Positions 16,094 to 52,936 of a DNA stretch of 64,000 bases are shown one piece after another. The position numbers were made by a program, and so were the translations under genes. The stretch is from Dyella sp. 2HG41-7 (lineage in GTDB: Bacteria; Pseudomonadota; Gammaproteobacteria; Xanthomonadales; Rhodanobacteraceae). Every line of letters begins with the position of its first letter. Position 1 is the first letter of the stretch. The notes under the pieces are model-generated. The model saw only the letters and a list, made by a program, of their open reading frames with translations, did not search any database and was not told the origin of the DNA. The DNA lies in NCBI RefSeq assembly GCF_021390675.1, contig NZ_JAJEJV010000004.1, positions 3,224,001 through 3,288,000 of the forward strand, read 5' to 3'.

Positions 16094-16364
16094 CTAGGGT
16101 CTGTTCGCACTATTTGCGTGGCCCGCGCCGGGAGCTGTTTGCGCGCCAGGCAAGGAAGAGCGAGGGAGTGTACGTCCGTACACGACTGAGCGATGACGCC
16201 GGCTGGCGCGCAAACAGACCCGGCCCTTTGGGTTGTCGATGAGTGGCCGCCATGCGGCAGCGCGCGGCTTGGCTTGACGGCCAGTCAAGCCGTCGCCACG
16301 CACTACCACCTGACGGCCACTCATCGACAACGCGGGCCACGCAAATAGTGCGAACAGACCCTAG
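16094..16364. repeat. Foldback element copy A (cloverleaf-like, 271 bp)
   Basis: Perfect 34-bp terminal inverted repeats (16094-16127 and 16331-16364, outer end CTAGGGTCTGTTCGCAC). Inside are two long stem-loops: 16135-16149 with 16203-16217 (15 bp perfect), whose loop contains the hairpin GTGTACG-TC-CGTACAC, and 16232-16249 with 16314-16331 (18 bp perfect), whose loop contains GGCTTGAC-GGCCA-GTCAAGCC at 16271-16291. No coding frame is plausible. It sits between divergent genes and shares layout and loop motifs with copies C and D, but not their stem sequences. Confidence 0.88.
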
Positions 16365-16443
16365 CCCGAGACGCCAGGCGCACTTCGCACGCATGTGGGT
16401 CTTTGCTACTGTCTGAACCCGCTATCCACCTCAGGGGAATCCC

Positions 16444-17388
16444 ATGCGTCTCGGCCAACTTCGTGCGGCACTGGTTTTGACGAGCGCGTTGCTTGCGCTA
16501 CCGGCCATGGCCGATACGACCAAGGCGACGCCCACCTCGAAAGAGCTGATCGCCAAATCCAAGCCGGCCGAATGGCGCACGCCCGACCCGGAAAATCTGC
16601 TCTATATGCAGTTGCCGCAAGGCCGCGTGGTGATCGAATTGGCGCCCGACTTCACGCCATTGCACGCGCAGAACATCCGCACACTGGTGCGCGAACACTA
16701 CTTCGACGGTCTGGCGATCATTCGCGTGCAGGATAATTTTGTTACGCAATGGGGCGACCCCAACGACGATGACAACGGCGACAAAAGCAAGATCAAACCG
16801 CTAGGCACCGCCAAGCCGAAACTTGCGCCCGAATACACGCGCAGCATCGATCCGAAACTGCCTTGGACCGCGCTGCCCGATGGCGATGTGTATGCACCGC
16901 AGGTCGGTTTCAGCGAAGGATTTCCGGTCGCGCGCGATCCGGCCAAGGGTCGTGAGTGGCTGGTGCATTGCTACGGCATGGTGGGCGTCGCGCGCGATGT
17001 GGCGCCTGACAGCGGCAGCGGCAGTTCGCTTTATACGGTGATCGGTCAGGCGCCGCGCCAGATCGATCGCAATCTCGCCATTGCCGGTCGCGTGATCGAA
17101 GGCATGCCTTATCTTTCCGCGTTGCCGCGCGGCACCGGACCACTGGGTTTCTACACGCAAGCGGCGCAACGTACGCCGATTCTGTCGGTCAAAGTGGCCG
17201 CCGATCTGCCCGCCTCGCAACGCGAAAATCTGCAGGTCTTGCGCACCGACAGCGCCACGTTCGCGGCGATCGTCGAGGCCAAGCGCAATCGTCGCGATGC
17301 GTTCTACACGCTGCCTGCCGGCAAGATCGGACTCTGCAGTATCGATGTTCCCGTGCGCACGGAAACATCGGCCGAAGCGAAACACTAA
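16444..17388 (+). CDS. Periplasmic cyclophilin-type peptidyl-prolyl isomerase
   Basis: A 314-residue protein with a signal peptide cut near LPAMADTT. The cyclophilin fold is seen in LLYMQLPQGRVVIELAPDFTPLHAQNIRTLVREHYFDG, then IRVQDNFVTQWGDP, and after an insert GMVGVARDVAPDSGSGSSLYTVIGQAPRQIDR. It is longer than typical PpiA (about 190 residues) through insertions and a C-terminal extension. It probably assists folding of envelope proteins. The gene follows foldback copy A and appears monocistronic. Confidence 0.88.
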   Translation: MRLGQLRAALVLTSALLALPAMADTTKATPTSKELIAKSKPAEWRTPDPENLLYMQLPQGRVVIELAPDFTPLHAQNIRTLVREHYFDGLAIIRVQDNFVTQWGDPNDDDNGDKSKIKPLGTAKPKLAPEYTRSIDPKLPWTALPDGDVYAPQVGFSEGFPVARDPAKGREWLVHCYGMVGVARDVAPDSGSGSSLYTVIGQAPRQIDRNLAIAGRVIEGMPYLSALPRGTGPLGFYTQAAQRTPILSVKVAADLPASQRENLQVLRTDSATFAAIVEAKRNRRDAFYTLPAGKIGLCSIDVPVRTETSAEAKH

Positions 17389-17539
17389 ATTTGGGGCTTT
17401 TCCTGCGTTGAACGGCCAGCAGATGAATCCGTGCTAAGCATCGGCGCTCAATTACACAAATTCTTCGCCTTGACCATAGTTTCCTGAATAACTGCGCGAG
17501 GCAGCGCGCAAACTCATTCAGCAGCGAAGGCGGAATGTC

Positions 17540-19675
17540 ATGAAGCGCAGCCGAAAAGTACTGATTGGCATCACTGGCGTCGTGTTGGCGCTGGTCGTTG
17601 CGTTGGTGCTGTTCATTGCGCTGTTCGATTGGAATCGGTTGCGTCCGCTGATCAACGACAAGGTCAGCGCGGCGATTGGCCGGCCCTTCGTGATCGAGGG
17701 CAATTTGACCGCGGCATGGCAGCGCGAGCCTTCCGAACCAGGATGGCGTGCCATCGTTCCGTGGCCGACGTTCACCGCCAACGACATCCATATCGACAAT
17801 CCGTCGTGGACCAAGCAGCCGCAATTCGTTCGACTCGATGCGTTGCGCTTGCGAATCTCGCCGCTTCCGCTGCTGATTCATCACATCTATCTGCCTTTCG
17901 TGCAGTTGGTCGGACCGCACCTGGATCTGGAGCGCGACAACAAAGGCGAAGCCAATTGGGAGCTCACGCTTCCGCAAAGCTCGACGCCATCGCCGTGGTC
18001 GTTCACGCTGGGCACAATCCAATTCGACAAAGGCGATATCGCGCTGGACGATGCGAAGACGCGCCTGAAGTTGCACGTCGACATCACGCCGTTGCAGCAA
18101 GCCATTCCGTATGACCAGATCGTGTCGCAAGCGACCAACGACGCGCGCGCAGACGTCGGCCACGACGTAGGCAAAAGTGTGGACGCCACCAAGACCCATC
18201 CGGATGCCTCCAGCAACGCGGAGCGCACAAGCTATCAATTCTCCTGGACGACCGACGGCAGTTATCAAGGCGCAGCCGTAACCGGCACCGGCAAAACCGG
18301 CGCGGTGCTCGCGCTACAGCAGACCGATGTGCCCTTCCCCGTGCAGGCGCGCATGCATATCGGTGACAGCAAGATCGCGCTGGTCGGTACGCTTACCGAC
18401 CCCACGCATCTGGGCGCTTTGAATTTGCGCGTGTGGTTCGCCGGCACGAGCATGGCGAAGCTGTATCCCATCATCGGCATTACCTTGCCCGAAACGCCGC
18501 CGTATGCGACCGAAGGTCATTTGACGGCAGAATTGCACGCACACGGCAGCCACTTCAGTTACAACGATTTCAAAGGCCGCGTCGGCGAAAGCGACGTCGG
18601 TGGCAATTTGCAGGTCATCACCGGCGGCGCGCGGCCCAAGCTCAGCGGCGACGTGCATTCGAAATTGCTGCGCTTTGTGGATCTTGCGCCGCTTATCGGC
18701 GCAGACACCAAGGCGCAAAAACAACAGCGCGGCGACACCACAGCGCAACCTACGGACAAGGCGTTGCCCGTCGAGCAATTCCGCACCGATCGCCTGCGCA
18801 CGATGGATGCGGACGTGACTTTCGACGCCGCGCATATCGAGCATCCCAGCTCCATGCCGATCGATGCGCTGAGCACCCATGTGCTGCTCGACGACGGTTC
18901 GCTGAAACTCGATCCGCTGCATTTGGATGTGGCCGGCGGCACGATCAACGGACGTCTGCGCGTGGACGGCAATGCGCAACCCATGCATACCGCGATGGAT
19001 TTGCGTGCGCGCCATCTGCGCCTGAAGCAGCTATTCCCTACCGTCCAAACGATGCAAAACAGCTTCGGTGAAATCAACGGCGATATTGCGTTGAACGCCA
19101 CCGGCAATTCCGTGGCGGCGTTGATGGGTAGCGCGAATGGCGAATTGAAGTTGCTGATGAACGATGGCGCCATCAGCAAAACCTTACTGGAAGCAGCCGG
19201 TTTGAATGTCGCCAATGTCGTGGTCGAAAAGCTGTTCGGCGACAAGACGGTGCATATCAATTGCGCGGCCGCGGATTTGGCCGGAACGAACGGTCTGTTC
19301 AACAGCAGACTGTTCGTGCTGGATACCGCCGATGCCACCGTGGACGTCGACGGCACCATCAACTTCGCCGACGAAAAACTCGACCTCGACGTCGTACCGC
19401 ATACGAAGGGTTTGCGCATCTTTTCGCTGCGCACGCCGCTGTACGTGAAAGGTACCTTCAAGAAACCCGATGTCGGCTTGCATCCGGGCCCGCTGATTTT
19501 GCGTGGCGGTGGCGCTGTGGCGCTTGCCGTTGTCGCGGCCCCGGCTGCGGCCTTGCTTGCCGTGATCGTGCCCAGTCGCGGGGATCAGACCAATACCTGT
19601 CAAACGGTGCTGACGCAGCTGCATAACGAACCTCCGCCGACAGCGCCGAAAAAACCAAGCGCAAAGACCAAATAA
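17540..19675 (+). CDS. AsmA family protein
   Basis: A 711-residue inner-membrane-anchored periplasmic protein. One N-terminal TM (LIGITGVVLALVVALVLFIALFDWN) leads into the AsmA N-terminal domain (RLRPLINDKVSAAIGRPFVIEGNL). The C-terminal AsmA-2 domain is marked by LNATGNSVAALMGSANGELKLLMNDGAI and FNSRLFVLDTADATVDVDGTINF. AsmA-like proteins form beta-rich bridges and take part in phospholipid transport to the outer membrane. The last ~60 residues contain a Gly/Ala stretch and CQT. It is monocistronic, about 150 bases after the cyclophilin gene. Confidence 0.9.
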   Translation: MKRSRKVLIGITGVVLALVVALVLFIALFDWNRLRPLINDKVSAAIGRPFVIEGNLTAAWQREPSEPGWRAIVPWPTFTANDIHIDNPSWTKQPQFVRLDALRLRISPLPLLIHHIYLPFVQLVGPHLDLERDNKGEANWELTLPQSSTPSPWSFTLGTIQFDKGDIALDDAKTRLKLHVDITPLQQAIPYDQIVSQATNDARADVGHDVGKSVDATKTHPDASSNAERTSYQFSWTTDGSYQGAAVTGTGKTGAVLALQQTDVPFPVQARMHIGDSKIALVGTLTDPTHLGALNLRVWFAGTSMAKLYPIIGITLPETPPYATEGHLTAELHAHGSHFSYNDFKGRVGESDVGGNLQVITGGARPKLSGDVHSKLLRFVDLAPLIGADTKAQKQQRGDTTAQPTDKALPVEQFRTDRLRTMDADVTFDAAHIEHPSSMPIDALSTHVLLDDGSLKLDPLHLDVAGGTINGRLRVDGNAQPMHTAMDLRARHLRLKQLFPTVQTMQNSFGEINGDIALNATGNSVAALMGSANGELKLLMNDGAISKTLLEAAGLNVANVVVEKLFGDKTVHINCAAADLAGTNGLFNSRLFVLDTADATVDVDGTINFADEKLDLDVVPHTKGLRIFSLRTPLYVKGTFKKPDVGLHPGPLILRGGGAVALAVVAAPAAALLAVIVPSRGDQTNTCQTVLTQLHNEPPPTAPKKPSAKTK

Positions 19676-19795
19676 CCGATAGCGGCTTGGGTCGCCTTTG
19701 CGTCATGGGCGCATAGCCCTACAAATCCTTCCGCTCAAAAGCAGCGCCCGCCTCGGCTAGAATGAGCGACCGTTCCCCGCACGTGCTCGCTCCCC

Positions 19796-20722
19796 ATGCA
19801 GCCTGTCATCAAGGCCCGCCTGCAAATTCATTTCTGCGTACTGCTGTGGGGCTTTACCGCCATTCTCGGCAAGCTGATCACGCTGCCCGCCATCGCGTTG
19901 GTATGGTGGCGCATGTTGTTGGTGGCGGGCGCGTTGCTCTTGATGCCGAAAGTGTGGCGCGATTTGCGCGCCATGCCGAGAAAGCTGCTGCTCTCGTATG
20001 CCGGCATCGGCGTGCTGGTGTCCATACACTGGCTAACGTTTTATGCGTCGATCAAGCTCGCGAACGCCTCGGTAGGTGCGACATGCATTGCGCTGGGGCC
20101 GGCGTTTTTGGCGTTTGTGGAGCCGTGGGTCGCACGACGCCGTTTCGATCCGCGCGAACTGTTGATCGCCATCGCCGTGGTTCCAGGCGTGGCGATGGTT
20201 GCGGGCGGCGTGCCGGGCCATATGCGCATCGGCATTGCGGTGGGTGTGGTTTCGGCACTTTTCGTAGCGTTGTTCGGCGCGTTCAACAAACGCATGGTCG
20301 ATCATGCCGATCCATTGACGGTGACCTGCATCGAACTGGGCACCGGCGCCGTGTTTCTCACCGTGATGGCGCCTTTGCTGCCGCACACCGGCCCTGCGTT
20401 TCCCATTCCGAACCTGCGCGACGCGGCCTTGCTGCTTACGTTGTCGTTCGCTTGCACATTGTTGCCGTTTTCGCTGGTGCTGGTGGCATTGAGGCACGTC
20501 AGCGCTTTCGCCATGCAGATGATCACCAATCTCGAACCCGTCTATGCGATCGTGCTGGCCATGCTGTTCCTGAGCGAACAACGCCAATTGGATGGTTGGT
20601 TTTACGCAGGCGTGGCCGTGATTCTTGCTGCGGTGTTCGCGCATCCGTTGCTGCATCGAAAGGACCGGATTTCGGTGCAGCCGGAATTGCTCGGCACCGC
20701 CGAAAGCCACAACCTCGATTGA
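19796..20722 (+). CDS. EamA/DMT family transporter
   Basis: A 308-residue protein with about ten membrane helices in two EamA repeats: FCVLLWGFTAILGKL to VEPWVARRRF and GVVSALFVALFGAFNKRM to FLSEQRQLDGWFYAGVAVIL. The closing motif NLEPVYAIVLAMLFLSE is typical. Family members export metabolites such as amino acids; the substrate cannot be inferred. The frame at 19762 also opens but the protein begins naturally at ATG 19796. A TAGAAT at 19758-19763 could serve as its -10 element. Confidence 0.9.
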   Translation: MQPVIKARLQIHFCVLLWGFTAILGKLITLPAIALVWWRMLLVAGALLLMPKVWRDLRAMPRKLLLSYAGIGVLVSIHWLTFYASIKLANASVGATCIALGPAFLAFVEPWVARRRFDPRELLIAIAVVPGVAMVAGGVPGHMRIGIAVGVVSALFVALFGAFNKRMVDHADPLTVTCIELGTGAVFLTVMAPLLPHTGPAFPIPNLRDAALLLTLSFACTLLPFSLVLVALRHVSAFAMQMITNLEPVYAIVLAMLFLSEQRQLDGWFYAGVAVILAAVFAHPLLHRKDRISVQPELLGTAESHNLD

Positions 20723-20800
20723 TCACGGCCAGTTATCGCTGCACACGCTGATTTGGCATATAGTCGATTGGCTGCATCGGACGCCTCGGCGGAGATCACC

Positions 20801-21442: not shown

Positions 21443-21499
21443 TGACGTGGCGGCGGCAGACTGGGACGTATACTGAGCCATCCCAGCCCGCCGACCGCC

Positions 21500-22429: not shown

Positions 22430-22472
22430 GCTCGAACCTGACCGTCGCTCGATTCGCCGCAAGGAAATCGTC

Positions 22473-22979: not shown

Positions 22980-23003
22980 CCGTACTTCGCGCAGGGGGCG
23001 CTT

Positions 23004-23912: not shown

Positions 23913-24041
23913 CCGGCCGCGCAGCCTTGTTGCGACGCGCCATATATTAGGAGCTAGATACTATTTTCTGTCACGGATGGCGTCGATTCGGCCCCAATAT
24001 TTGCCGCCCATTAATGTTGCATAGCAAAAATACGCTATAGT

Positions 24042-24656: not shown

Positions 24657-24761
24657 CCAAAGCGAGCCGGCCCTCAGTGGCCGCCGCCTGATCGCAACGC
24701 GTTACACTTGCGCGTTCCATTGACGCGGCATACGGGTCGCGTCGCTCACGCAGCGCGCCCC

Positions 24762-27700
24762 ATGTCGAATCCGATCAGTCACCCGCCCCTTCCAACCACC
24801 CCCAAGCAACGCCGCTTCTGGACCCCGCCACACGGGTCTGCGCGCGCCTTGCTGGTTGCCGAGGCCGCCAGGTCGCATAACGGCCTACTGGTGGTGGTGA
24901 CTCGCGATACTCAGCGCGCACATGCGCTGGAAGACGAATTGCGCTTGTTCGCAGGCTCGCTTCCGGTGTTGCATTTCCCGGATTGGGAAACGCTGCCGTA
25001 CGACGTTTTCAGTCCGCATCCCGACATCGTTTCGCAACGCGTCGCCACGCTGTATCAATTGCCGAGCGTCAAACGCGGCGTGTTGGTCGTGCCGGCGGCC
25101 ACGCTGATGCAGCGCATTGCGCCACGTGCGCACATCACCGGCGCGGGATTGATGCTGCGCAAAGGGCAGAAACTCGATCTCGCCTCCGAGCAACGTCGCC
25201 TCGAAGCTTCTGGCTATCGACATGTGCCGCAAGTGGCAGAGCCAGGCGATTTCGCGGTGCGCGGCGCGTTGATCGATATCTTTCCGATGGGCGCGGGCGA
25301 GCCGTATCGCATCGAATTGTTCGATGACGAAGTGGAATCGATCCGCAGTTTCGATCCGGAAACGCAGCGCTCGCAGCAACAGGTCGACAACGTCGAACTG
25401 CTGCCGGCGCGCGAATTTCCCGTCACCGACGAAGCCGCCAAATCATTCCGCAGCCGTCTGCGCGAACGCTTCCCGATCGACGTACGCCGCTGCCCGGTCT
25501 ATCAGGACATGAAGGAAGGCGTGACGCCCGGCGGCATCGAGTATTACCTACCGCTGTTTTTCGACCAAACCGCCACGCTGTTCGACTATCTCGCCGACGA
25601 CGCACTGTTCGTACTCGGCGAAGGCACGCATGATGCGTCCGAGCAATTCTGGACGCAGACTGCCGAACGCTACGATCAGCGCGCGCACGATATCGAACGC
25701 CCCGTACTGCCTCCAGCCGAGCTTTATCTTTCGCCCGAGCAGTTGCGCGAACAACTCAACAAGCGTCTGCGCGTGGAAGTGGTCGATAGCGGTCACGAGC
25801 ACGCGGTGGACGCTGGCACGCAACCGGCGCCGGATGTTCCGCTCAATCGCAAAGGCGAGGAACCGGGCACATCGTTGCGCCATTTCGTCGAAGCGTATTC
25901 CGGCCGTATTTTGATCGCCGCCGATTCGGCCGGCCGCCGCGAAGCCTTGCTCGAACAATTGGCAGCCGCTGGTCTGAATCCACCGAATGTGGATGGATGG
26001 CAAGCGTTTCTGGATGACGCCAACAAACTCACCATCGCTGTCGCTCCGCTGGAACAAGGCTTCGCGCTCAAGAAACCAGCGCTCACGGTACTCACGGAAC
26101 GCGAGCTGTTCGGTGAACGCGTACGCACCGAACGGCGGCGCCGTCGCGGTGCGGCGCGCGATCCTGAAACGATCATTCGCGACCTGACGGAGCTTTCGGT
26201 CGGCGCGCCGATCGTGCACGTCGATCATGGCGTCGGCCGCTATCAAGGCTTGGTGTCGATGGAACTCGGCGGCATGGAGGGCGAGTTCCTTACCATCGAA
26301 TACGCCAAGGGCGACAAGCTGTACGTACCGGTGGCGCAGCTCGGGCTGGTGAGCCGCTACTCGGGCACGGCGCCGGAACTGGCGCCGCTGCATTCACTGG
26401 GCGGCGACGCATGGGAGCGCGCGCGCAAGCGCGCGGCGGAGAAAGTTCGCGACGTCGCGGCGGAGTTGTTGGCGATCTATGCGCAACGCGAAGCGCGCGG
26501 CGGTGAATCGCTGTCGATCGATCGCCAGATGGTGGAAGAATTTGGGAGCAGTTTCCCGTTCGAGGAAACGCCCGATCAGCTGCGCGCCATCGACTCCGTG
26601 CTGGGCGATCTTGCCGCACCGCGCGCGATGGATCGCGTGATCTGCGGCGACGTGGGCTTCGGCAAAACCGAAGTCGCCTTGCGCGCCGCATTCGCGGCGG
26701 CCACCGCGGGCAAGCAAGTTGCTGTGCTCGTGCCGACGACTTTGCTCGCGCAACAGCATTACCGCAACTTCGCCGACCGCTTTGCCGATTGGCCGGTGCG
26801 CGTCGATGTGCTGTCACGCTTCCGTTCTACCAAGGACGTGAACGAAGCGCTGAAGCGCCTTGCCGAAGGCACGATCGATGTCATCGTCGGCACGCACAAG
26901 CTGCTGCAGTCGGACGTGAAGTTCAAGAACCTCGGCCTGGTCATCGTCGACGAAGAACAACGTTTCGGCGTACGCCAGAAAGAGCAATTGAAAAAGCTTC
27001 GTGCCGAAGTCGATCTGCTCACCATGACCGCTACGCCGATTCCGCGCACGCTGAACATGGCGATGAGCGGGTTGCGCGATCTCTCGCTGATCGCCACGCC
27101 GCCGGCGCATCGCATGGCAGTGCGCACCTTCGTTTCCATCTGGGAGCCGGCGCTGATTCGCGAGGCATTCCAGCGCGAACTGCAGCGCGGCGGCCAGGTG
27201 TATTTGCTGCACAACGAAGTGGAATCCATCGAACGCAAAGCCCGCGAAGTGCAGGAGTTGATTCCCGATGCGCGCATCGGCGTGGCGCACGGTCAGATGC
27301 CGGAGCGCGAGCTGGAACAGGTCATGGCCGATTTCCATCGCCAGCGCTTCAACGTGCTGGTGTGCACCACGATTATTGAAACGGGCATCGATATTCCGAC
27401 CGCCAACACCATCATCATCGATCGCGCGGACCGCTTTGGCCTGGCGCAGTTGCATCAATTGCGCGGCCGCGTGGGGCGTTCGCATCATCGCGCGTATGCG
27501 TATTTGATCGTGCCGGATCGCAAGTCCATTACGGCGGATGCGGAGAAGCGCCTGGAAGCGCTCGCATCGCTGGAAGAACTCGGCGCGGGCTTTACGCTCG
27601 CCACGCACGATCTGGAAATTCGCGGCGCCGGCGAGTTGCTGGGCGACGAGCAATCGGGACAGATTCAGGAAATCGGCTTCGGCCTTTACACCGAATTGCT

Positions 27701-28211
27701 GGAACGCGCGGTGCGCGCATTGAAATCCGGCAAAGTACCCGACTTCGATTTAAGCAGCGAACACGAGACCGAAGTCGAGCTGCATCTGCCTGCGCTTATT
27801 CCCGATGATTACCTGCCCGACGTGCATGCGCGCCTGACGCTCTACAAACGCATCGCCAGCGCGCGCGATCATGAAAGCCTACGAGAATTGCAGGTGGAGA
27901 TGATCGACCGCTTCGGCCTGCTGCCCGATGCCGTGAAGCACCTGTTCGCCATCGCAAGCTTGAAACTGATGGCGACGCCGCTCGGTATTCGCAAACTGGA
28001 TTTCGGCGCCAACGGTGGACGCGTCACCTTCCGCGACAAGCCCGAAGTCGATCCGATGGCGATCATTCGTTTGATCCAAAGCCAACCGCGCGTCTACAAA
28101 CTGGAAGGCCAGGACAAGTTGAAGATCAACCTGGAACTTCCCGGCTCCAGCGAGCGCCTCCGTGCGGCCGAAGACATTCTCGGCCGACTCGGTGCGCGCA
28201 AGGCGGCGTAG
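24762..28211 (+). CDS. mfd: Transcription-repair coupling factor Mfd
   Basis: A 1149-residue protein of full Mfd length. In order: UvrB-like N-terminal part (LLVVVTRDTQRAHALEDEL, DVFSPHPDIVSQRVATLY), the RNA-polymerase-interacting domain (APIVHVDHGVGRYQGLVSMEL), RecG-like helicase motifs (GDVGFGKTEVALRAAFAA near residue 628, VIVDEEQRFGV near 728, LTMTATPIPRTLNMAM, VCTTIIETGIDIPTANTIII) and the C-terminal TRCF domain (LGDEQSGQIQEIGFGLYTELL). Mfd removes stalled RNA polymerase at DNA lesions and recruits UvrA. ATG 24762 is chosen over an upstream TTG (24708). Confidence 0.97.
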   Translation: MSNPISHPPLPTTPKQRRFWTPPHGSARALLVAEAARSHNGLLVVVTRDTQRAHALEDELRLFAGSLPVLHFPDWETLPYDVFSPHPDIVSQRVATLYQLPSVKRGVLVVPAATLMQRIAPRAHITGAGLMLRKGQKLDLASEQRRLEASGYRHVPQVAEPGDFAVRGALIDIFPMGAGEPYRIELFDDEVESIRSFDPETQRSQQQVDNVELLPAREFPVTDEAAKSFRSRLRERFPIDVRRCPVYQDMKEGVTPGGIEYYLPLFFDQTATLFDYLADDALFVLGEGTHDASEQFWTQTAERYDQRAHDIERPVLPPAELYLSPEQLREQLNKRLRVEVVDSGHEHAVDAGTQPAPDVPLNRKGEEPGTSLRHFVEAYSGRILIAADSAGRREALLEQLAAAGLNPPNVDGWQAFLDDANKLTIAVAPLEQGFALKKPALTVLTERELFGERVRTERRRRRGAARDPETIIRDLTELSVGAPIVHVDHGVGRYQGLVSMELGGMEGEFLTIEYAKGDKLYVPVAQLGLVSRYSGTAPELAPLHSLGGDAWERARKRAAEKVRDVAAELLAIYAQREARGGESLSIDRQMVEEFGSSFPFEETPDQLRAIDSVLGDLAAPRAMDRVICGDVGFGKTEVALRAAFAAATAGKQVAVLVPTTLLAQQHYRNFADRFADWPVRVDVLSRFRSTKDVNEALKRLAEGTIDVIVGTHKLLQSDVKFKNLGLVIVDEEQRFGVRQKEQLKKLRAEVDLLTMTATPIPRTLNMAMSGLRDLSLIATPPAHRMAVRTFVSIWEPALIREAFQRELQRGGQVYLLHNEVESIERKAREVQELIPDARIGVAHGQMPERELEQVMADFHRQRFNVLVCTTIIETGIDIPTANTIIIDRADRFGLAQLHQLRGRVGRSHHRAYAYLIVPDRKSITADAEKRLEALASLEELGAGFTLATHDLEIRGAGELLGDEQSGQIQEIGFGLYTELLERAVRALKSGKVPDFDLSSEHETEVELHLPALIPDDYLPDVHARLTLYKRIASARDHESLRELQVEMIDRFGLLPDAVKHLFAIASLKLMATPLGIRKLDFGANGGRVTFRDKPEVDPMAIIRLIQSQPRVYKLEGQDKLKINLELPGSSERLRAAEDILGRLGARKAA

Positions 28212-28216
28212 CACAA

Positions 28217-28294
28217 GGATGCTCTGCGCCACGCAACACACCCTGCGAACCCTCTGGACATCATGCCGCCTACGTAGAATGGATCAGAGCATCC
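28217..28294. repeat. Foldback element copy B (internally deleted, 78 bp)
   Basis: This remnant has only GGATGCTCTG of the left terminus joined to the right quarter of a copy-C-type element: CGCCACGCAACACACCCTG, CCTCTGGACATCATGCCGCC and the terminal repeat ending GGATCAGAGCATCC. The join falls at a shared CTG, so it looks like a microhomology deletion. It fills the gap between the convergent mfd and egtD genes and no longer forms the internal stem-loops. Confidence 0.8.
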
Positions 28295-29269
28295 CTATAC
28301 GGCCCGTGCGGTGAGGTATTGCAGGCTGAACAATCCTTCGGGGTCCAGCCAAACGTGCTGCACGGCCAAGCCGGCCGTCGCCGCCAGCGCGGCGAAATCC
28401 TCCAGCGAGTATTTGCAGCTGTATTCCACCAGCATGGCTTCGTCTTCGCGAAACGGAATGTCGTAACGCCCCACCTGCACGCGCTGGTCGCGGTTGCTAA
28501 GGATATGCGTTTCGATGCGACCTGCCATCGCGTTGTAACGCGCGCGATGACGAAACCCGCCGAGGTCGAAGTTGCAACCCAGCTCGCGATTCAAACGCGT
28601 CAGCATATTGAGTGTAAACGCTGTCGTGATACCGGCGCGGTCGTTGTATGCCGCTTCGATCGTCTTACGGCTTTTCTTCAAATCCGCGCCGACCAGAATG
28701 CCGCCGTTGTCGCCCATTTCGCCGCGCATTTTGCGCAACAGCTGCGCGGCATCGCGATCTTCGAAATTGCCGATGGTAGAGCCCGGGAAATACAACACCG
28801 TACGACGCGGCGCGCGCGGCGGAACTGGCAATCGCAACGACTTGGTGAAATCGACGGCCAACGGCTGAATCGGCAGATCGGGAAAGTGCGTGGACATGCG
28901 CGCCATCGCCTGACGCAACGGCTCGGCGGAAAGCTCGATCGGCACCCATGCGACGGGATTGACGAGATGTTCCAGCAACAGACGCGTTTTGATCGCGTGC
29001 CCGCTGCCGTATTCCACCAGACGCACATCCGGGCCGAGCACGCCGGCAATATCGCCCGCGTGTTGATTCAACAACGCGATTTCCGCGCGGGTCAGGTAAT
29101 ACTCGGGCTGTTCGCAAATCTGTTCGAACAACGCGGAACCCTGCTCGTCGTAGAACAACCACGACGGTAAGCGCTTGGGTGTTGCGCGCAACCCACGCTG
29201 TACCACTTGGAGTAGTACATCGTCGGGTGGGCGTTGTTCGTCTCGTACTGCATAAGCTTGCACACTCAT
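28295..29269 (-). CDS. egtD: L-histidine N(alpha)-methyltransferase EgtD
   Basis: A 324-residue SAM-dependent methyltransferase that trimethylates histidine to hercynine, the first step of ergothioneine synthesis. Family signatures: LPSWLFYDEQGSALFEQICEQPEYYLTRAE, VRLVEYGSGHAIKTRLLL (SAM site), and VLYFPGSTIGNF. The ATG at 29269 overlaps the stop of egtB by four bases (ATGA), so the genes are translationally coupled. Its end touches foldback copy B. Confidence 0.95.
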   Translation of the reverse strand: MSVQAYAVRDEQRPPDDVLLQVVQRGLRATPKRLPSWLFYDEQGSALFEQICEQPEYYLTRAEIALLNQHAGDIAGVLGPDVRLVEYGSGHAIKTRLLLEHLVNPVAWVPIELSAEPLRQAMARMSTHFPDLPIQPLAVDFTKSLRLPVPPRAPRRTVLYFPGSTIGNFEDRDAAQLLRKMRGEMGDNGGILVGADLKKSRKTIEAAYNDRAGITTAFTLNMLTRLNRELGCNFDLGGFRHRARYNAMAGRIETHILSNRDQRVQVGRYDIPFREDEAMLVEYSCKYSLEDFAALAATAGLAVQHVWLDPEGLFSLQYLTARAV

Positions 29270-30516
29270 CGGTCCTGTCCCAATCGGATGCCCGCAAACT
29301 GCCAGCGGGCATGGGGCGGAAAGAAATTGCGGTAGCTGGCTCGAATGTGATCGCGCGGCGTGGCACACGAGCCGCCGCGCAAGACCCACTGACCATTCAT
29401 GAATTTGCCGTTGTATTCGCCGAGTGCGCCGGGCAACGGTTTGAATCCCGGATAGCTCACATACGGCGAAGCCGTCCATTCCCAGACGTCGCCGTACATC
29501 TGAAGTAGTCCGTCGCCGGCCGGTATGGCGGTGGGATGGAAGCCAAGGTTCTCTTGGAAGTTGCCGTGGATGGGCAATGACGATGCGGCGTCTTCCCATT
29601 CGGCTTCGGTCGGCAAGCGCGCATCGGCCCAACGCGCGAACGCGTCGGCTTCGAAGTAGCTGATATGGCAGACCGGCGCGTGCGGATCCAAGGCTTGAAT
29701 ACCCGCAAGCGTGAACTCGCTGGACAAATCGTCCTGCCAATACAGCGGATGTTGCCAGCCTTCGCGCTGCACGATCGCCCAGCCGTCGGAAAGCCAAAGG
29801 CCTGCTTCGCGATAGCCGCCATCGCGTATGAAAGCGACGTATTCGGCGTTGGTGACCAATCGGTTTGCCAATGCGTGCGCCGACAACCACGTCGTATGCC
29901 GTGGCAATTCGTTGTCGTATGCGAAGCCCCCGTCTTCCTGGCCGATGTCCACCGGACCCTGTCGCCCAGGCAAGAAGCGCATGGACGATGTTCGGCTCTC
30001 ACCACGCGCGTTCGCCTTGCGATAGATCGGTCGCAAAGGATTGCACCAAAACGCGTGCTTGATGTCGGTGAGCAACAGTTCCTGATGTTGCTGTTCGTGT
30101 TGTAAACCCAGCTCGATTCTGGCCGTTAGCGTAGCGTCCACGCCGCGCACCAGCAGCTCGCCCACGGCTTCATCGACGCGTGCGCGATAATCGCGAATCT
30201 CCTCCAGCGACGGCCTCGACAGCAGGCCGCGCTGCGGTCGCGCATGCATTGAACCGACCGATTCGTAGTAGGAATTAAGCAGGTGGTACCAATCGGCATT
30301 CGGCGAACGGTAAGCCGGGTCGTAACCCAAGACGAACTGTTCGAAAAACCAGGTGGTATGCGCCAAGTGCCACTTGCCCGGACTGGCGTCGGGCATGGAT
30401 TGCACTTGCAGGTCTTCGCCGGTCAACCCAGAGCACAGTCCCAGCGTTTGTCGACGTATACGCATGAATCGCGCTACGGCATCTTCGGTGTGTATGGCGA
30501 ATGCGGGGACATTCAT
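29266..30516 (-). CDS. egtB: Ergothioneine biosynthesis sulfoxide synthase EgtB
   Basis: A 416-residue non-heme-iron enzyme that joins hercynine to a thiol (gamma-glutamylcysteine or cysteine) with O2. The N-terminal DinB-like domain carries the iron ligands in HLAHTTWFFEQFVLG and LQHEQQHQELLLTDIKH; the C-terminal FGE-sulfatase-like domain carries LPTEAEWEDAA, DVWEWTASPYVSYPGF and WVLRGGSCATPRDHIRASYRNFF. Start ATG 30516 is chosen from protein alignment memory; a TTG 11 codons upstream is possible. It is the first gene of a two-gene egtBD operon; egtC and egtE are not adjacent. Confidence 0.92.
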   Translation of the reverse strand: MNVPAFAIHTEDAVARFMRIRRQTLGLCSGLTGEDLQVQSMPDASPGKWHLAHTTWFFEQFVLGYDPAYRSPNADWYHLLNSYYESVGSMHARPQRGLLSRPSLEEIRDYRARVDEAVGELLVRGVDATLTARIELGLQHEQQHQELLLTDIKHAFWCNPLRPIYRKANARGESRTSSMRFLPGRQGPVDIGQEDGGFAYDNELPRHTTWLSAHALANRLVTNAEYVAFIRDGGYREAGLWLSDGWAIVQREGWQHPLYWQDDLSSEFTLAGIQALDPHAPVCHISYFEADAFARWADARLPTEAEWEDAASSLPIHGNFQENLGFHPTAIPAGDGLLQMYGDVWEWTASPYVSYPGFKPLPGALGEYNGKFMNGQWVLRGGSCATPRDHIRASYRNFFPPHARWQFAGIRLGQDR

Positions 30517-31133: not shown

Positions 31134-31145
31134 ATAAATCGCTCA

Positions 31146-38714: not shown

Positions 38715-38776
38715 CCCTGCTCTCCGCCGTGTTTTGGGGGCCCTTTCTCAGCATAGAGAGGGCGCGCTTTGGGATT

Positions 38777-39958: not shown

Positions 39959-40071
39959 TGCGATCTCCGGTCAAAGCGCCATTGTACGTCCTAAGCGTTG
40001 ATGCACTGCAGATTGACGTCGAACAAAAGCAGGTATCCACTCATCTCAACTCCGTTCCCCACGGATCGAAT

Positions 40072-41595: not shown

Positions 41596-41639
41596 GTTTC
41601 AGCGGCGTCGATCCTGCGCAGCAAATCCATGCTTGGCCA

Positions 41640-42023: not shown

Positions 42024-42107
42024 CGGCGAGGTTTCCTGTCGTCAAGGCCGCGATGAATCGTCGCGCGTGGCGTATGCTGGCTGGGTTCCGCCGCATGGAA
42101 TTCTTGC

Positions 42108-43168: not shown

Positions 43169-43182
43169 ATAAAACCGACGTC

Positions 43183-44818: not shown

Positions 44819-44883
44819 CCATCGCCGACCAGCTTAAATCAGCTGAGGTCCGGACGGCACTAGCTTGCGGCATCTTGCCGTGA

Positions 44884-46794: not shown

Positions 46795-46795
46795 G

Positions 46796-47530: not shown

Positions 47531-48465
47531 GGCCGCGCTCCCGTTTCCGCGCCCAAGGTGATTTGACGAAACACTTCGTCGAGACGTCCGCGTTCGAGCT
47601 GTATTTCGGAGATCTCCAAACCTTGCTGGCGCAGCAACGTTTCGACTGGTTCCAGAATACGTTCGCCAGGCTTCGGGAACACAGTAATACGGCCGTCCAA
47701 AGGATCTACCTCGATACCGGCCACTTGCGGAAGACGTCCAAGCATCTCTTGCGACACGCCGCTGCCCGCCGCGCTGAATGACACGGCGCCGTGATAACGC
47801 GATCGCGCTTCCAACTCGGCCGGCGTGGCATCCGCGCGCAATTTTCCGCCGGCGATAATCACCACGCGATTGCACAAGGCATGCACTTCTTCCAGCAAAT
47901 GCGTGGAAATAAGAATCGTGCGTTCGCGCGCCATGGCGTCGATCAGTTGTCGCACGGTGTGTTTTTGATTCGGATCGAGACCGTCAGTCGGTTCGTCCAG
48001 CATCAACACCGGTGGATCGTGCAGAATCGCTTGCGCCAGTCCGACGCGTCTGCGCAAACCTTTGGAGAGCGTATCTACGCTTACGTTGAGCGCGTCTTCC
48101 AGCTGCAAATAGCTGACCACTTCGTCGAAACGGCGTCGACCGACATCCGCGCGCAATCCACGCACGCGCATGATGAAGACCAAAAATTCGCGTACCGTCA
48201 TTTCGCCGTAGCTAGGTGCGCCTTCCGGCAAGTAACCGAGCGCGCGCTTGGCCTTCAACGGCTCTTTGAGCACATCGTGACCGCACACGCGCGCCGTGCC
48301 TGATGTGGGCGCGAGAAACCCGGCGATCATGCGCATCGCGGTCGATTTCCCCGCGCCGTTTGGGCCCAGCAGCCCGAGCACCTGGCCTGGCTCCGCATAG
48401 ATGCTCAACGCATCCACGGCGGTCAAATGGCCATAGCGCTTGGTGAGCTTATCGGTCTCGATCAT
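47527..48465 (-). CDS. ABC transporter ATP-binding protein (GldA-like)
   Basis: A 312-residue ATPase: Walker A LLGPNGAGKSTAMRM near residue 34, signature TLSKGLRRRVGLAQA, Walker B VLMLDEPTDGLDPNQ, H-loop LISTHLLEEV, plus an extended C-terminal part common to GldA/CcmA-type proteins. Start ATG 48465 is chosen because the domain starts there; an open frame reaches 48504. It is the first gene of the three-gene ABC operon and lies beside foldback copy C. Confidence 0.92.
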   Translation of the reverse strand: MIETDKLTKRYGHLTAVDALSIYAEPGQVLGLLGPNGAGKSTAMRMIAGFLAPTSGTARVCGHDVLKEPLKAKRALGYLPEGAPSYGEMTVREFLVFIMRVRGLRADVGRRRFDEVVSYLQLEDALNVSVDTLSKGLRRRVGLAQAILHDPPVLMLDEPTDGLDPNQKHTVRQLIDAMARERTILISTHLLEEVHALCNRVVIIAGGKLRADATPAELEARSRYHGAVSFSAAGSGVSQEMLGRLPQVAGIEVDPLDGRITVFPKPGERILEPVETLLRQQGLEISEIQLERGRLDEVFRQITLGAETGARP

Positions 48466-48504
48466 GTTCGCTCGCGAAAAGAACTGCTCTGCAATGTACA
48501 GCAA

Positions 48505-48817
48505 GGGATGCTCTGATCCATTCTACGTAGGCGTCACCGGCTTTGTCCGTTCGCAGGCCACAGGACCATCGGCAAAGGCAGACTGGCTGTCTGTCGAGAC
48601 GATGCGCCGCGCGCGGGGAGGGTACATGGATGTACCCGGATTTGAGGAGCGAGGAAGGCATGCGAACGGACAAAGCCGGCCCGGAGTTTGATGTCCAGAG
48701 AGCTCGCAGGCTGCGCCGCGTAGCTTGAACAGACGGCCAGTCTGCACTGCGCCACGCAACACACCCTGCGAGCCCTCTGGACATCATGCCGCCTACGTAG
48801 AATGGATCAGAGCACCC
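48505..48817. repeat. Foldback element copy C (cloverleaf-like, about 310 bp)
   Basis: Terminal inverted repeats match perfectly over 25 bp (48509-48533 and 48790-48814, TGCTCTGATCCATTCTACGT and inward). Inner stem 1 pairs 48537-48555 with 48661-48679 (19 bp, perfect) and its loop holds GGGTACAT-GG-ATGTACCC plus a CAGAC/GTCTG hairpin. Inner stem 2 pairs 48690-48710 with 48765-48785 (20 of 21) and its loop holds CAGAC-GGCCA-GTCTG (48730-48744). It lies between the ABC operon start and the end of the SRPBCC gene. Confidence 0.88.
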
Positions 48818-48866
48818 ACGCGTGCGGCAAAGTTCGCCGAACCCTACGACACGCCAATGCGATAAC

Positions 48867-48896
48867 GAAAAAGCCCTCCAAAAGGAGGGCTTTTTC
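48867..48896. terminator. Rho-independent terminator of the SRPBCC gene
   Basis: GAAAAAGCCCTCC and GGAGGGCTTTTTC form a perfect 13-bp stem with an AAAA loop. It lies just past the minus-strand stop at 48917 and, being symmetrical with A and T runs at both ends, can act in either direction. Confidence 0.93.
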
Positions 48897-48916
48897 TGCA
48901 ACCGAAAGCGTAGAGC

Positions 48917-50305
48917 TTACTTCGCGGCGCTGCTGGCGGGCGCCGGCGCAGTGCTGGCCGGAGCCGGCGCGGTGCCGCTGGAAGCCGGCTGGCCGTTTGC
49001 GTTGATGATGCCCGGCTGCTTGATGCCGGCAGCCTGTTCCGGCGTCTGCTGCGGGAGCGCGGCGCCATCGGACGAATCCATGATCGGCAGGTACACGGCG
49101 TACTGCGCGTACGTCTGGATGTTGCCGCCGCCGTCTTTCACTTCCGGCTGCGTGAGGATGTCGTACAGACGGTTGGTCACTTCGTCGTACTTGTAGCCGT
49201 GCGTCTGCGCGTAGGCCTTCAGCATGTCGCGGGTCTGCGGCACGCCGGCAGCGGTGCCGTTCCACGGTGCTTCGAGCGCCGTGCCGCCGAAGGCGAGCGT
49301 CGCGCGCACGTTGTTGTCGATGATCAGACGGTTGTAGCGATCTTTGCCACCCGGCTGGTTGTTGTCGGCATTGGCCGGTGCAGCGGCGGTGCCGCTTGCA
49401 GCCGGAGCGGCCTGATCGTTCAACGAAGGCGGCGTCGCTGCCGTGAGCTTGGTGCTCTGGCCATTGACCGTCAGCGTGTCGCTGTCGATCGGCTGCGCCA
49501 CGTCGAACGTGTAGGTCTCGTCACCGTAGTTGGTGGTGAGGATCACGCGCGGACCGGTGGTGTGCACGCCCAGCTTCTTGGCGGCGTCGCCGATCTGCTT
49601 GACGGCGGCGTCAGTGGCTTCATTCAAGCCGTCCAGACCGTCCTTGCGCTTCATCTGAGTCGAAACGATCAGCACCGGCGTCGGCTTGGTCTGCACGATG
49701 TACGGATCGAGCGCGCTGTAGTCGATGTTCGGCACAGCGGCCAGCACGTTCTGCAGGTTGTTCAAGCTGTACTGGATGAACGCGTCCGGCTGACCGTGGA
49801 TGTACATGTTGGAGTAACGGTCCAGGATGTTGAAACCGTAGCTCACGTCATACGCCCACGTGATCTTGGTCAACTTACCGGTGTTGCCCTGACGCTGCAG
49901 ATCCAGCGTGAAGTGCTTGTCGCTACCGCGCCACGCATTGTCCAGATTCCAAATGATCTGCGCGCTGTTGACGGTGCTATCGATCTTGCTGAAATCCGGG
50001 GTGGCGCTGGCGACAGTCAACTTGCCGGTGCCAACTTTTTCGTCCTGGCTGTTCCAGCTGACTTCGGAACCGGGGCCGTAGGCGCTGCCGGAAAGCGTGT
50101 ACTGGGTACGCGGATCGTACGCGCGCAGCACGGCGTAATCAGGGAAGGGACGGAAATTTGCCATTACGTCATAGACCTGGCGCAGGTCTTTGCTGACCAC
50201 CAGCGACCGTTCAACGTGGCCACTGCCGGGCATGATGATGCCCACCACCACGCCAACTACGATGACGATGATGAAGGCAACGATGAATTCCAGAACACGC
50301 GTCAT
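48917..50305 (-). CDS. SRPBCC-fold membrane-anchored protein
   Basis: A 462-residue protein. One N-terminal TM (FIVAFIIVIVVGVVVGIIMPG) precedes a START/SRPBCC-like domain (HVERSLVVSKDLRQVYDVMANFRPFPDYAVLRAYDP, NAWRGSDKHFTLDLQ). The next ~200 residues resemble a GyrI-like or second ligand-binding unit (AVKQIGDAAKKLGVHTTGPRVILTTNYG), followed by a low-complexity Ala/Pro tail. Likely a periplasmic ligand-binding protein; function unknown. It is followed by a strong terminator. Confidence 0.8.
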   Translation of the reverse strand: MTRVLEFIVAFIIVIVVGVVVGIIMPGSGHVERSLVVSKDLRQVYDVMANFRPFPDYAVLRAYDPRTQYTLSGSAYGPGSEVSWNSQDEKVGTGKLTVASATPDFSKIDSTVNSAQIIWNLDNAWRGSDKHFTLDLQRQGNTGKLTKITWAYDVSYGFNILDRYSNMYIHGQPDAFIQYSLNNLQNVLAAVPNIDYSALDPYIVQTKPTPVLIVSTQMKRKDGLDGLNEATDAAVKQIGDAAKKLGVHTTGPRVILTTNYGDETYTFDVAQPIDSDTLTVNGQSTKLTAATPPSLNDQAAPAASGTAAAPANADNNQPGGKDRYNRLIIDNNVRATLAFGGTALEAPWNGTAAGVPQTRDMLKAYAQTHGYKYDEVTNRLYDILTQPEVKDGGGNIQTYAQYAVYLPIMDSSDGAALPQQTPEQAAGIKQPGIINANGQPASSGTAPAPASTAPAPASSAAK

Positions 50306-50514
50306 TCCAGGTTTCTCCGAGACGTCTCTTTAGTGCGGTGAGAAAGCGCCGGCTGGAACGGGGACCGCCAAAAGAGCTTTTCCCACGAGGGAAACCGCAT
50401 CAGGACGGGGTTCGGACAGCGCCTAAGAAGCCGATGGTACTTGCTCGCGCGCAGGAACGCTACGGGCCGGGGACGCCCGCTGCCGCGTTGCTACGCAGCA
50501 TTTTTCGGCCGATT

Positions 50515-50535
50515 GCGCGGCTTTCTTGGCCGCGC
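50515..50535. terminator. GC hairpin after the response-regulator gene
   Basis: GCGCGGC and GCCGCGC form a 7-bp stem with a seven-base loop directly after the stop codon of the minus-strand response regulator. No T-run follows on that strand, so termination strength is doubtful. Confidence 0.35.
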
Positions 50536-51177
50536 TTAAACGATGCCCAGCTCCAACGCTTTCAACACCGCGCGCGTACGATCGCGTACGCCGAGCTTGG
50601 AAAGGATGTTGGAAACGTGATTTTTCACCGTGCCTTCCGCCACCTTCAGCGAATTGGCGATTTCCTTGTTGCTGTAACCGCCTGACAGCAAACGCAGTAT
50701 CTCCGTCTCGCGTTCGGTCAACGGATCAGGTTGTTCGAGGCTGGTGAATTGATTGTGGATGCGACCCACACCGGCCAGCAGGCGCTGGGTCACCATCGGC
50801 GCGACCAGCGAACCGCCGCTGGCGACTGTGCGCACAGCCTCCACCAGCTGCTCCAAGGACACGTCTTTGAGCAGATAGCCGCGCGCGCCGGCCTTCAGGC
50901 CTTGCAGCACAAGCTGATCGTCGTCGAAGGTGGTGAGGATGATGGTCGGCGGCAATTCATTGCGCGCCGTGAGCGCCTGCAACACTTCCAGTCCGCTCAT
51001 GTTGGGCATGCGCAGATCCAGCAACACCACGTCCGGCTTGATGCGTGGAATATCTTGCACGGCCTGCACGCCATCGGCGCATTCGGCCACGACGCGAATA
51101 TCCTCCGCCAGATCGAGCAGGGAACGCACACCCTGGCGTACCAGGTTCTGATCGTCGACGAGACAAACGGAAATCAT
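50536..51177 (-). CDS. NarL/LuxR-family response regulator (DesR-like)
   Basis: A 213-residue regulator. The receiver domain has the acidic pocket VDDQN and phospho-acceptor Asp54 in [10 protein letters not shown]; the LuxR-type HTH is at the C-terminus ([45 protein letters not shown]). It is paired with the sensor kinase gene upstream on the same strand, 67 bases away. Targets cannot be inferred from sequence alone; the fit to the DesKR group is by fold. Confidence 0.93.
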   Translation of the reverse strand: [213 protein letters not shown]

Positions 51178-51244
51178 CGCGCATCCTCAAAGCAAAGGTG
51201 GTACCCGTAAACCACACGCGTACTTATGACATTCTGGCAATTCA

Positions 51245-52462
51245 TTAGGTAAGGCTCAATGCGGGCGGTTCAAAACGTGAAGGCGTATGCGCCAGCACGG
51301 AGGGTTCGCCCAATGGAAGACGGATGCTGAGCGCAAAACCCTGCCCTGCTCCGCTTTCCATGGTGACGTCGCCACCGAACTCAACCAGGCGCTCGCGCAT
51401 GCCGGCCAGACCGTTGCCGGGCGCGATGTCGGCCGTGCCGCGGCCATCGTCCCTTGCGCACAAACTAAGCAGCGTCTCGCCTTCGTAGGTGAAGGTCAGC
51501 CACAGATTGCGCGCTCCGGCGTGCCGGGCGGTATTGGTAATGATTTCTTGCACACAGCGCAACAGCACCTGCGCGCGCCGCGGGTCTTCCACGCTGAAGC
51601 GCGACGGTGTCGTCAGATGCACGTGCAGGCTGGGCACGCCGTCGATCAAGCTTTGCAGCGCTTGCGTGAGATCGATGGCGTCGTCCTGACGCAATTCGCT
51701 CACCGCCTCGCGCACGTCCGCCAGCAATAGGCGCGCCGTGCTTTGCGCTTTGCGCACATGCACCGAGGCGGCTTCGTTGCTGAGATGACTGGCCACTTCC
51801 AGATTGAGGCTCAACGCGGTGAGGTGATGCCCGATCAAATCGTGCAGCTCGCGGGCGATGCGCATGCGCTCGGCGATGCGCGTGGATTCGGCCAGCAGCG
51901 CACGCGTGGCGCGCAATTCGGAAATAAGGCGGCGCTGCGCTTCGCGCTCCTCCGCTTGCTGACTGGCGACGGTGGAAACCACGAACACCAGCCCCGAGAA
52001 CGCCGTATAGATGCATGCCTGCAGCAGCGCCAGGGTGAAGCTGAACTTCAGCTCGGGGAAATTGGAAAACAGCACGGTGAGACAGACCGTCTGCAACACC
52101 ATCCACGCCACCCCCACCCAGGCCGGCACCACCCAGGGCAGGATCACCATCATGACCACCAACAAAATCGCCGACAAACCGCTATGGCTATACCAACCCA
52201 CCAGCAAGGCCGCCGCAGTCATCAAAAGCAAGCCAAACAGACGCGAACCAACGTGGGTGCGCGAACCCAGATTGTCGGTGATCAGTAGATACAAGATGCC
52301 GAACACCAGGTAGAACAGGGTCCACAGCAGCAATGCGAAATTGGGGCGATGCAGCAAATCCAGCCGCTCCATGGCCCAGTTGGTGAATAGCGGCGTGCCG
52401 ACGCACAGGTAGGCGAGCAAACCCGTAATGCGCAAAAGCCGTTTATGGTCGAAATTGGTCAT
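51245..52462 (-). CDS. Sensor histidine kinase (HisKA_3, DesK-like)
   Basis: A 405-residue kinase. About five to six TM helices fill the first ~150 residues (LLRITGLLAYLCVGTPLFTNW, LIVMMVILPWVVPAWVG). The dimerisation domain contains RIARELHDLIGHHLTALSLNLEVASHL with phospho-His near residue 207, and the ATPase domain has NGLAGMRERLVEFGGDVTMES. The ATG at 52462 starts the first helix; longer readings add a basic stretch. It pairs with the NarL-type regulator to form a membrane-sensing two-component system. Confidence 0.9.
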   Translation of the reverse strand: MTNFDHKRLLRITGLLAYLCVGTPLFTNWAMERLDLLHRPNFALLLWTLFYLVFGILYLLITDNLGSRTHVGSRLFGLLLMTAAALLVGWYSHSGLSAILLVVMMVILPWVVPAWVGVAWMVLQTVCLTVLFSNFPELKFSFTLALLQACIYTAFSGLVFVVSTVASQQAEEREAQRRLISELRATRALLAESTRIAERMRIARELHDLIGHHLTALSLNLEVASHLSNEAASVHVRKAQSTARLLLADVREAVSELRQDDAIDLTQALQSLIDGVPSLHVHLTTPSRFSVEDPRRAQVLLRCVQEIITNTARHAGARNLWLTFTYEGETLLSLCARDDGRGTADIAPGNGLAGMRERLVEFGGDVTMESGAGQGFALSIRLPLGEPSVLAHTPSRFEPPALSLT

Positions 52463-52667
52463 GGGCATGACTCGCATCATAGGGCCGCGTGGGGACCTCG
52501 CCATGCGCGGGAAGTCATGCGCCGCAGCGGAGCCGTCGCGCGGGGACACGTCCGTTTTACTCCCGCCACGCTGCCGCCTCAACACTCGGTTTTACAAAGC
52601 TTTTACATGCCGAATCTTGCCGCAGCACGGGATGTACCATGAGGTGTCACATGCCATAATGCGGCAA
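52463..52667. other. Intergenic spacer before foldback copy D
   Basis: A 205-base stretch upstream of the sensor kinase, presumably carrying its promoter. No convincing gene or -35/-10 pair is visible. With foldback copy D it makes a gene-free interval of over 500 bases between divergent genes. Confidence 0.5.
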
Positions 52668-52936
52668 GGAATGCTCTGATCAATTCTACGTAGGTGGCAT
52701 GATGTCCAGAAGGCTCACAGGGTGTGTTGCGCGGCGCAGGGCAGACTGGCCGTCTGTTCAAGCCGCGCGGCACAGCCTGTGAGCCTTCTGGACATCACCC
52801 TCCGGGCCGGTGCTGTCTGTCCGCACGCCTTCGGCTCATCGTCTCGACAGACGGCCAGTCTGCCTTCGCCGATGGTCCTGTGGCCTGCGAACAGACAGCA
52901 CCGGTGACACCTACGTAGAATTGATCAGAGCATTCC
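52668..52936. repeat. Foldback element copy D (cloverleaf-like, 269 bp, inverted relative to C)
   Basis: Perfect 29-bp terminal inverted repeats (52668-52696, 52908-52936; GGAATGCTCTGATCAATTCT outward). Inner stems: 52701-52721 with 52776-52796 (21 bp, perfect) and 52807-52824 with 52887-52904 (18 bp, one mismatch). Each loop contains a CAGAC/GTCTG hairpin. Read backwards it aligns to copy C, except that the GTACAT hairpin region is missing and many stem bases differ in matched pairs. Confidence 0.88.

Follow-up and report, generated by a model that had tools for sequence, protein, structure and literature searches.

Comparison with described repeats

Bacterial miniature inverted-repeat transposable elements (MITEs), including RUP, Correia/NEMIS, ERIC, Nezha and others, are short sequences without long genes that carry terminal inverted repeats, lie mostly between genes and occur in multiple copies, and several have TA at their ends or a TA-type duplication (PMC2229807, PMC3733652). 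The foldback elements analysed here, found in a stretch of 64 000 nucleotides (the window) from Dyella sp. 2HG41-7, share these properties. Other bacterial repeats, as described in PMC2229807, are end-to-end stem-loops without arms or linker, whereas the stem of the present elements encloses two arms and a linker. The CIR repeats of Caulobacter and Brucella resemble them in having two long inverted-repeat arms with a linker, an intergenic location and a conserved structure; they are, however, about 110 bp long and are described without terminal inverted repeats (PMC2229807), which measure 31–34 bp in the present elements. CIR repeats carry a GANTC motif, and the same source gives their target duplication as unknown and leaves the mechanism of their mobility open. 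Insertion sequences of the IS427 group (IS1248, ISPpa6 and others) are listed in PMC3281130 with sizes of 832–865 bp and TA-type duplications (2 bp in ten listed cases, 4 bp in one). The candidate partners identified here in relatives of the Dyella strain measure 820–860 bp and likewise have TA-type duplications, with overlapping open reading frames (ORFs) in both groups. The foldback elements differ from the IS427 group in bearing the ends only, and their copies with GAG-type ends in having a 3-bp TNA duplication.

We class the elements as MITEs of IS5-family insertion sequences in which the combination of an end-to-end stem with two arms appears to be new. In the open-access literature searched, neither a family of this kind in Dyella or Rhodanobacter nor a named one built in this way came up, in agreement with the first-pass annotation of the window, which knew of none. 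In our main reading, to which we give a probability of roughly 0.85, they are gene-free elements of 265–313 bp moved in trans by IS5-family transposases of the IS427 kind. Ends matching those of insertion sequences in one of the two families (family A) and in the family of one relative, target duplications, empty sites, spread in multiple copies and a recent burst in a relative were observed; from these we infer transposition itself, and the earlier suggestion of a non-autonomous mobile element is supported. MITEs are non-coding and 70–300 bp in size, a range that includes two full window copies (265 and 269 bp), the third reaching 313 bp with a nested insert. The copies and their parts are listed below with the basis of each assignment; R1 is a covariance model of the common second arm trained on 30 copies, own-genome ones included.

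16095–16096, no strand: left TA of the family A target duplication, inside CTAG (sequence; family statistics)
16097–16361, plus strand (arm1-first orientation): family A element, 265 bp (pairwise comparison, DNA fold)
16128–16221, boundaries approximate, plus strand: family A arm 1, stem CTGTTTGC..GCAAACAG (fold)
16222–16333, plus strand: family A spacer GGCCCTTTGGG and arm 2 with GACGGCCAGTC tip (R1, 118.3 bits)
16362–16363, no strand: right TA of the family A target duplication, inside CTAG (sequence)
28217–28294, plus strand: internally deleted family B half copy (96% to 48743–48817)
48505–48817, plus strand (arm1-first orientation): family B element with extra inner hairpin, 313 bp (pairwise comparison, fold)
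48610–48654, boundaries approximate, plus strand: nested small hairpin repeat GGGTACATGGATGTACCC..GAGGAGCGAGGAAGGC within arm 1 (absent from most other B copies)
48678–48789, plus strand: family B spacer and arm 2 (R1, 89.6 bits)
52668–52936, minus strand (reverse orientation): family B element, 269 bp (pairwise comparison, fold)
52697–52808, minus strand: family B spacer and arm 2 (R1, 107 bits)

All four copies of the first-pass annotation were recovered at their positions, with one change of boundary: the outer CTA and TAG of 16094–16364 are target letters, and the element proper is 16097–16361. Every full copy follows the same plan, a terminal stem around two long arms with a GGCCC-type spacer between them; a GGCCA-type hairpin tip is present in arm 2 of the full copies, and arm 1 of family B has one too. 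The terminal repeats of the three full copies are 93.5–100% complementary. Folded as single-stranded DNA, the 16094, 48505 and 52668 copies reached −117.6, −108.6 and −118.4 kcal/mol (z of −17.8, −12.2 and −18.6 against dinucleotide shuffles), far beyond chance, with none of 200, 100 and 200 shuffles, respectively, as stable as the real fold.

The shared plan described earlier, terminal stem, two arms, spacer and GGCCA tip, was thus found in the full copies, but they form two related families rather than one. Family B comprises 48505–48817 and 52668–52936, which have opposite orientations and are 75.8% alike, together with the half copy, whose letters 28220–28294 share 96% identity with the right-hand portion of 48505–48817. 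The 16094–16364 copy (family A) matched the family B copies weakly in pairwise comparison, resembling them in plan and, at the level of sequence, chiefly over arm 2. In the arm1-first orientation families A and B align across arm 2 with tip letters in common (alignment A3, 24 sequences collected with the A query and 6 of B type), which indicates that they are related. The extra length of the 48505 copy stems from a hairpin repeat of about 45–50 bp inside its arm 1, and the half copy begins with the initial 10 bp of the left end and passes from there directly into the descending half of arm 2, followed by the right end.

Candidate partner insertion sequences and target sites

The terminal inverted repeats would be the substrate of an IS5-family transposase, and insertion would duplicate a TA, TNA or CTAG target. 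Comparison of 263 element termini, which are not mutually independent, with the ends of insertion sequences from relatives showed that GAGCCTGTTCAAAGTCTC, the end of L273 and L275, occurs with 18 of 18 letters at eight termini; GAGCCTGTTCACGATCTT, the end of L239, was matched over 18 letters at one terminus and over 17 at 18 more, and the best match to GGGCGTGTTAACACTAT, the end of L240, was 16 of 18, at two termini. Among 1000 shuffled-tail controls these end scores were reached once (L273/L275) or not at all (L239, L240). In the related genome G019 the first 18 letters of the elements, CTAG included, are identical to one end of a further insertion sequence, L271 (GGGCGTGTCATCAAT). Beyond the ends, similarity between element and insertion sequence was short and weak (best interior E 0.054), which argues that the core did not arise from these partners by simple internal deletion.

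The six partner ORFs scanned (from L238, L239 and L240) contained DUF4096 or DDE_Tnp_1, and NCBIfam IS5_3 was the top match for all six, above the cut-off for three. The ORFs overlap in L238, L240 and L273 and are broken in L239. On their predicted products the partners are assigned to the IS5 family, and by size, overlapping ORFs and duplication they appear to match the IS427 group in the tabulation of PMC3281130. In L273, an ORF at 1981–2589, which runs past the right end of the IS5 element, repeats C-terminal transposase sequence, which suggests that this insertion sequence is partly duplicated in tandem. The one IS5-like locus of G019, L280, had ends that could not be defined.

Duplications were tallied in fixed alignment columns after removal of eight B-type rows. 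Of 102 copies with GAG-type ends (GAGCC..GGCTC), 51 were flanked by TNA on either side, and in 31 of these the two middle letters agreed, against an expectation of 14.0; copies with GGG-type ends (GGGCC..GGCCC) were flanked by CTA..TAG in 17 of 38. Within the window only 16097–16361 has a complete target duplication; at 52668–52936 TA is retained at the right flank only, and at 48505–48817 the TA duplication is no longer present. G019 yielded at least 18 covariance-model rows, and the 14 copies read there were 97–99% identical to the query copy, with CTAG on the left in all 14 and also on the right in 13, pointing to a recent burst. These copies (L381–L393, L400), whose ends match L271, would be a good system for observing transposition.

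Empty sites were sought by comparing the joined flanks of ten own-genome insertions with 16 genomes of the genus (own included), five loci being checked letter by letter. Three of the five, all family B, had unoccupied counterparts in relatives (12, 8 and 8 loci), some of them with small gaps by the junction; at the first, CACTA[element]TAGATG corresponds to CACTAGATG in relatives, with a single TA. For the window copy of family A no junction-spanning match was present among the matches listed. A MITE should also share its ends with an autonomous element, which was found for family A and the G019 family; family B is classed as a MITE by its kinship to A, its own duplications and its empty sites, and would have a partner of the same kind.

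Several observations count against movement by such partners. The ends of two insertion sequences fit poorly (best 14 of 18 for L238 and 10 of 18 for L283), and no insertion sequence bearing the family B ends GGGATGCTCTGATC was found among the IS5 loci examined, a search that was not exhaustive. Genes for DUF4096 are patchy, being present in 15 of 78 genomes of the family, and the own genome had no match to PF13586, PF13340, PF01609 or PF13358. Where GAG-type copies carry TNA at both flanks (51 copies), the middle letters differ in 20, and two of the five loci checked had no empty site among the loci examined, although for one of them (L008) junction-spanning matches do appear in the joined-flank search.

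A mover in the form of a repetitive extragenic palindromic (REP)-associated transposase had been proposed in the first-pass annotation, and the palindromic, intergenic, multi-copy nature of the elements would suit REP-like sequences moved by a Y1 (RAYT) enzyme. However, the own genome was negative for PF01797 (Y1_Tnp), a profile that did match 5 of 14 control genomes, and the target duplications and IS5 ends indicate a DDE enzyme, so that this mover is hardly credible. Identity with REPs themselves was rejected, since a REP is a palindrome of 20–40 bp tagged at one end (PMC3733652) and the present elements are too long. Two further candidates were rejected for the own genome: an IS5 partner, none being found by PF13586, PF01609 and PF13340, and an IS630 partner, the genome having no DDE_3 gene. 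The search for a partner transposase gave IS5-family candidates in relatives and was negative in the own genome by IS5, IS630 and REP-type profiles; since none was detected there, its copies are probably stranded.

Pairing in the core

In parasitic elements the ends read by the transposase are expected to be kept while the middle decays. Here the reverse is seen, the middle being kept by shape while the ends change, in which the elements also differ from other bacterial MITEs. The core, that is the terminal stem and two arms, occurs with four types of IS5 end, and each copy has individual stem letters in its arms, yet these letters pair; across many soil bacteria it is the shape of the middle, more than its sequence, that persists. 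Alignment A3 (30 sequences, 35 pairs) was made with MAFFT and is structure-blind; in its arm 2, 93.1% of 1044 cells were paired, compared with 66.1% when the 3' letters were shuffled and 30.9–40.5% when they were slid, and two-sided changes were present in 32 of 35 pairs. The covariation score was 0.702 versus 0.186, several columns contain all four Watson–Crick pairs and none of 500 shuffles reached any of five measures, although the structure was taken from the same alignment, which favours pairing somewhat, and kinship alone can beat shuffles. A core tree gave at least eight changes of end type among 147 labelled copies (31–41 in 100 shuffles); being a FastTree tree of the unfiltered set without support values, it is not used as evidence for end switching.

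We tentatively suggest, as a possibility that we would not rely on, that selection on the two-arm fold has made the core a DNA-structure module with a largely free stem sequence, which would free the element from any one transposase. The fold itself, a cruciform or a single-strand hairpin, would promote synapsis, excision or survival and so explain the passage of the core among several types of IS5 end and between bacterial families. In our main reading the palindromic arms were probably retained because an advantage in movement or persistence goes to copies that fold, whether as a cruciform or as hairpins in the single-stranded DNA of replication; such selection would act on the shape and leave many stem letters free. 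The core is not bound to one partner, as four types of IS5 end accompany it.

Part of the evidence weighs against this role of the core. Because one transposase reads both ends, the outer stem can covary without folding and does not prove it. The young G019 set of 14 copies showed one-sided changes only in its stems (21 single and 0 double cells). Arm 2 has a strand asymmetry that would suit RNA: on the arm1-first strand, private mismatches in family A number 93 A–C against 27 G–U, and a hand count in the mixed alignment A3 gave 42 against 19, which means that G–U exceeds A–C on the opposite strand and leaves room for an RNA there.

Pairing could accordingly be read as that of a functional RNA core (regulatory, stabilising or terminating) that rides on insertion-sequence ends, with selection on the transcript fold. 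On a transcribed strand G–U is expected to be tolerated over A–C. Overall counts were balanced, 424 G–U versus 475 A–C in the A query set (all 152 A-query rows, 8 of B type by signature, the set also used for low divergence below) and 129 versus 119 in B. Outside family A arm 2, private G–U and A–C mismatches had no common direction, with 30/46 in the outer stem and 25/33 in arm 1 of A, and 10/9, 32/19 and 26/30 in the outer stem, arm 1 and arm 2 of B; for the private counts the last 12 rows by rank were dropped, removing six of the eight B-type rows. At paired sites of family A arm 2, G>A outnumbered C>T by 112 to 73, alike on both sides, which makes a mutational cause possible, and at unpaired sites of arm 2 C>T exceeded G>A by 37 to 14; these counts do not settle whether the wobble lean is mutational. 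The folds are very stable, the tip letters are conserved and bacterial MITEs have been described as transcribed and structured (PMC10969869, PMC3733652, PMC2229807), but no Rfam family matched the elements at the gathering score, the six sub-threshold matches all being to unrelated families (Rfam 15; window at gathering score, five element-bearing loci by E-value), and there was no strong bias towards one gene arrangement. A structured RNA, an alternative in the first-pass annotation, is thus an unlikely general explanation; pairing at the DNA level is more likely, but arm 2, above all in family A, leans to G–U on the arm2-first strand and may have an RNA role.

A copying mechanism at replication, in which the template is switched at hairpins or imperfect palindromes are corrected, might uphold the pairing in place of selection. 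Among A-query copies of less than 6% divergence, two-sided changes exceeded independence 24-fold and 12-fold in the outer stem and 5.6-fold and 8.8-fold in arm 2, as such copying would predict, but the copy pairs in this count are not independent, and the changed pairs in arm 1 of family A were almost never double (0 of 49, 1 of 88). The stems of the 14 young G019 copies, with their single changes only, also speak against it. The changed cells of these copies, in which a change common to several copies is counted several times, number 21 in the paired part (214 positions) and 16 in the unpaired part (57 positions). On this small sample slow selection is favoured over automatic copying of arm onto arm, which we regard as improbable.

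Stems also decay. In G005, the locus corresponding to one site (L337) retains almost nothing of arm 1 and has lost the arm 2 tip, and deletion of the palindrome is the simple reading of both this locus and the 28217 half copy. With about 190 near-complete copies in one bacterial family (152 A-query and 44 B-query rows, 8 common to both) and relatives in a second, two questions can be addressed: whether the folding of chromosomal DNA is itself under selection in mobile elements, and how such elements move from one host transposon to another.

Distribution and smaller repeats

The own genome (4.26 Mb) contained 72 matching pieces with the B query and 68 with the A query, the latter including 12 more near-full copies of family A at 91–96% and four cores at 79–82%. 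The arm 2 model gave 71 rows at 40 places, three of them inside the window. The absence of comparable copies elsewhere in the genome, which would have spoken against the first-pass annotation, was therefore not observed, and copies occur in many relatives. Its view that the elements contain no gene and are intergenic also held, as none of 35 own-genome copies (some partial) was overlain by a selected ORF by a simple ORF method; their flanking genes were tandem in 19 cases, divergent in eight, convergent in five and undetermined in three. In the window, the neighbours of the family A copy are a gene weakly matching V4R (14960–15988, minus strand) and one for a cyclophilin-type isomerase (16444–17388, plus strand), and 52668–52936 lies between genes for a histidine kinase (51245–52585, minus strand) and a GNAT acetyltransferase (52991–53614, plus strand). 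The half copy is flanked by mfd (24708–28211, plus strand) and a Methyltransf_33 gene (28295–29890, minus strand).

Searches of 61 genomes detected B in 28 and A in 29, all of the same family save one weak A match. An exact 25-base pattern from the A core was present in at least 119 stretches, and the 80 titles among the matches listed were Dyella, Rhodanobacter and Fulvimonas. With stricter filters the model matched 38 of 200 genomes of the order, 17 of the same family (own included) and 21 of other families; six of the latter, from a single family (f2), had E-values of 8.8e-19 to 2.2e-8 and the remaining fifteen were weaker than 1e-9. Five of six f2 loci examined aligned over the full element length at 75–80%, four of the five with CTAG on both sides, and the sixth (L397) gave no BLAST alignment with the G019 element. 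Family A had no match in a plasmid collection and family B none in a phage collection, each being the only collection searched with that family.

At the counterpart of one B insertion (L011) in genome G015 (L338), a shrunken A-type element is present instead. The site of own-genome copy L004 bears different short insertions of about 70 and 110 bp in two other species (L328, G014; L329, G004), one of them with a CGTCATTCCCGCGAAAGC-type hairpin, at the same position as the L004 copy, an intergenic hot spot. The 45–50 bp hairpin repeat of the 48505 copy (GGGAG..GTACATGGATGTAC..GAGGAGCGAGGAAGGC) sits in arm 1 of three B copies (this one, L011 and L014), at two different positions that, read by eye, each adjoin GAAGGC, and also stands alone elsewhere in the own genome (matches of 44–55 bp); it may be another mobile hairpin, smaller and with a preferred target. 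Arm 1 of family A has a tip that looks similar to it. Apart from these repeats, the only Rfam match of the window at the gathering score was a fluoride riboswitch at 57230–57317 (RF01734, 36.8 bits).

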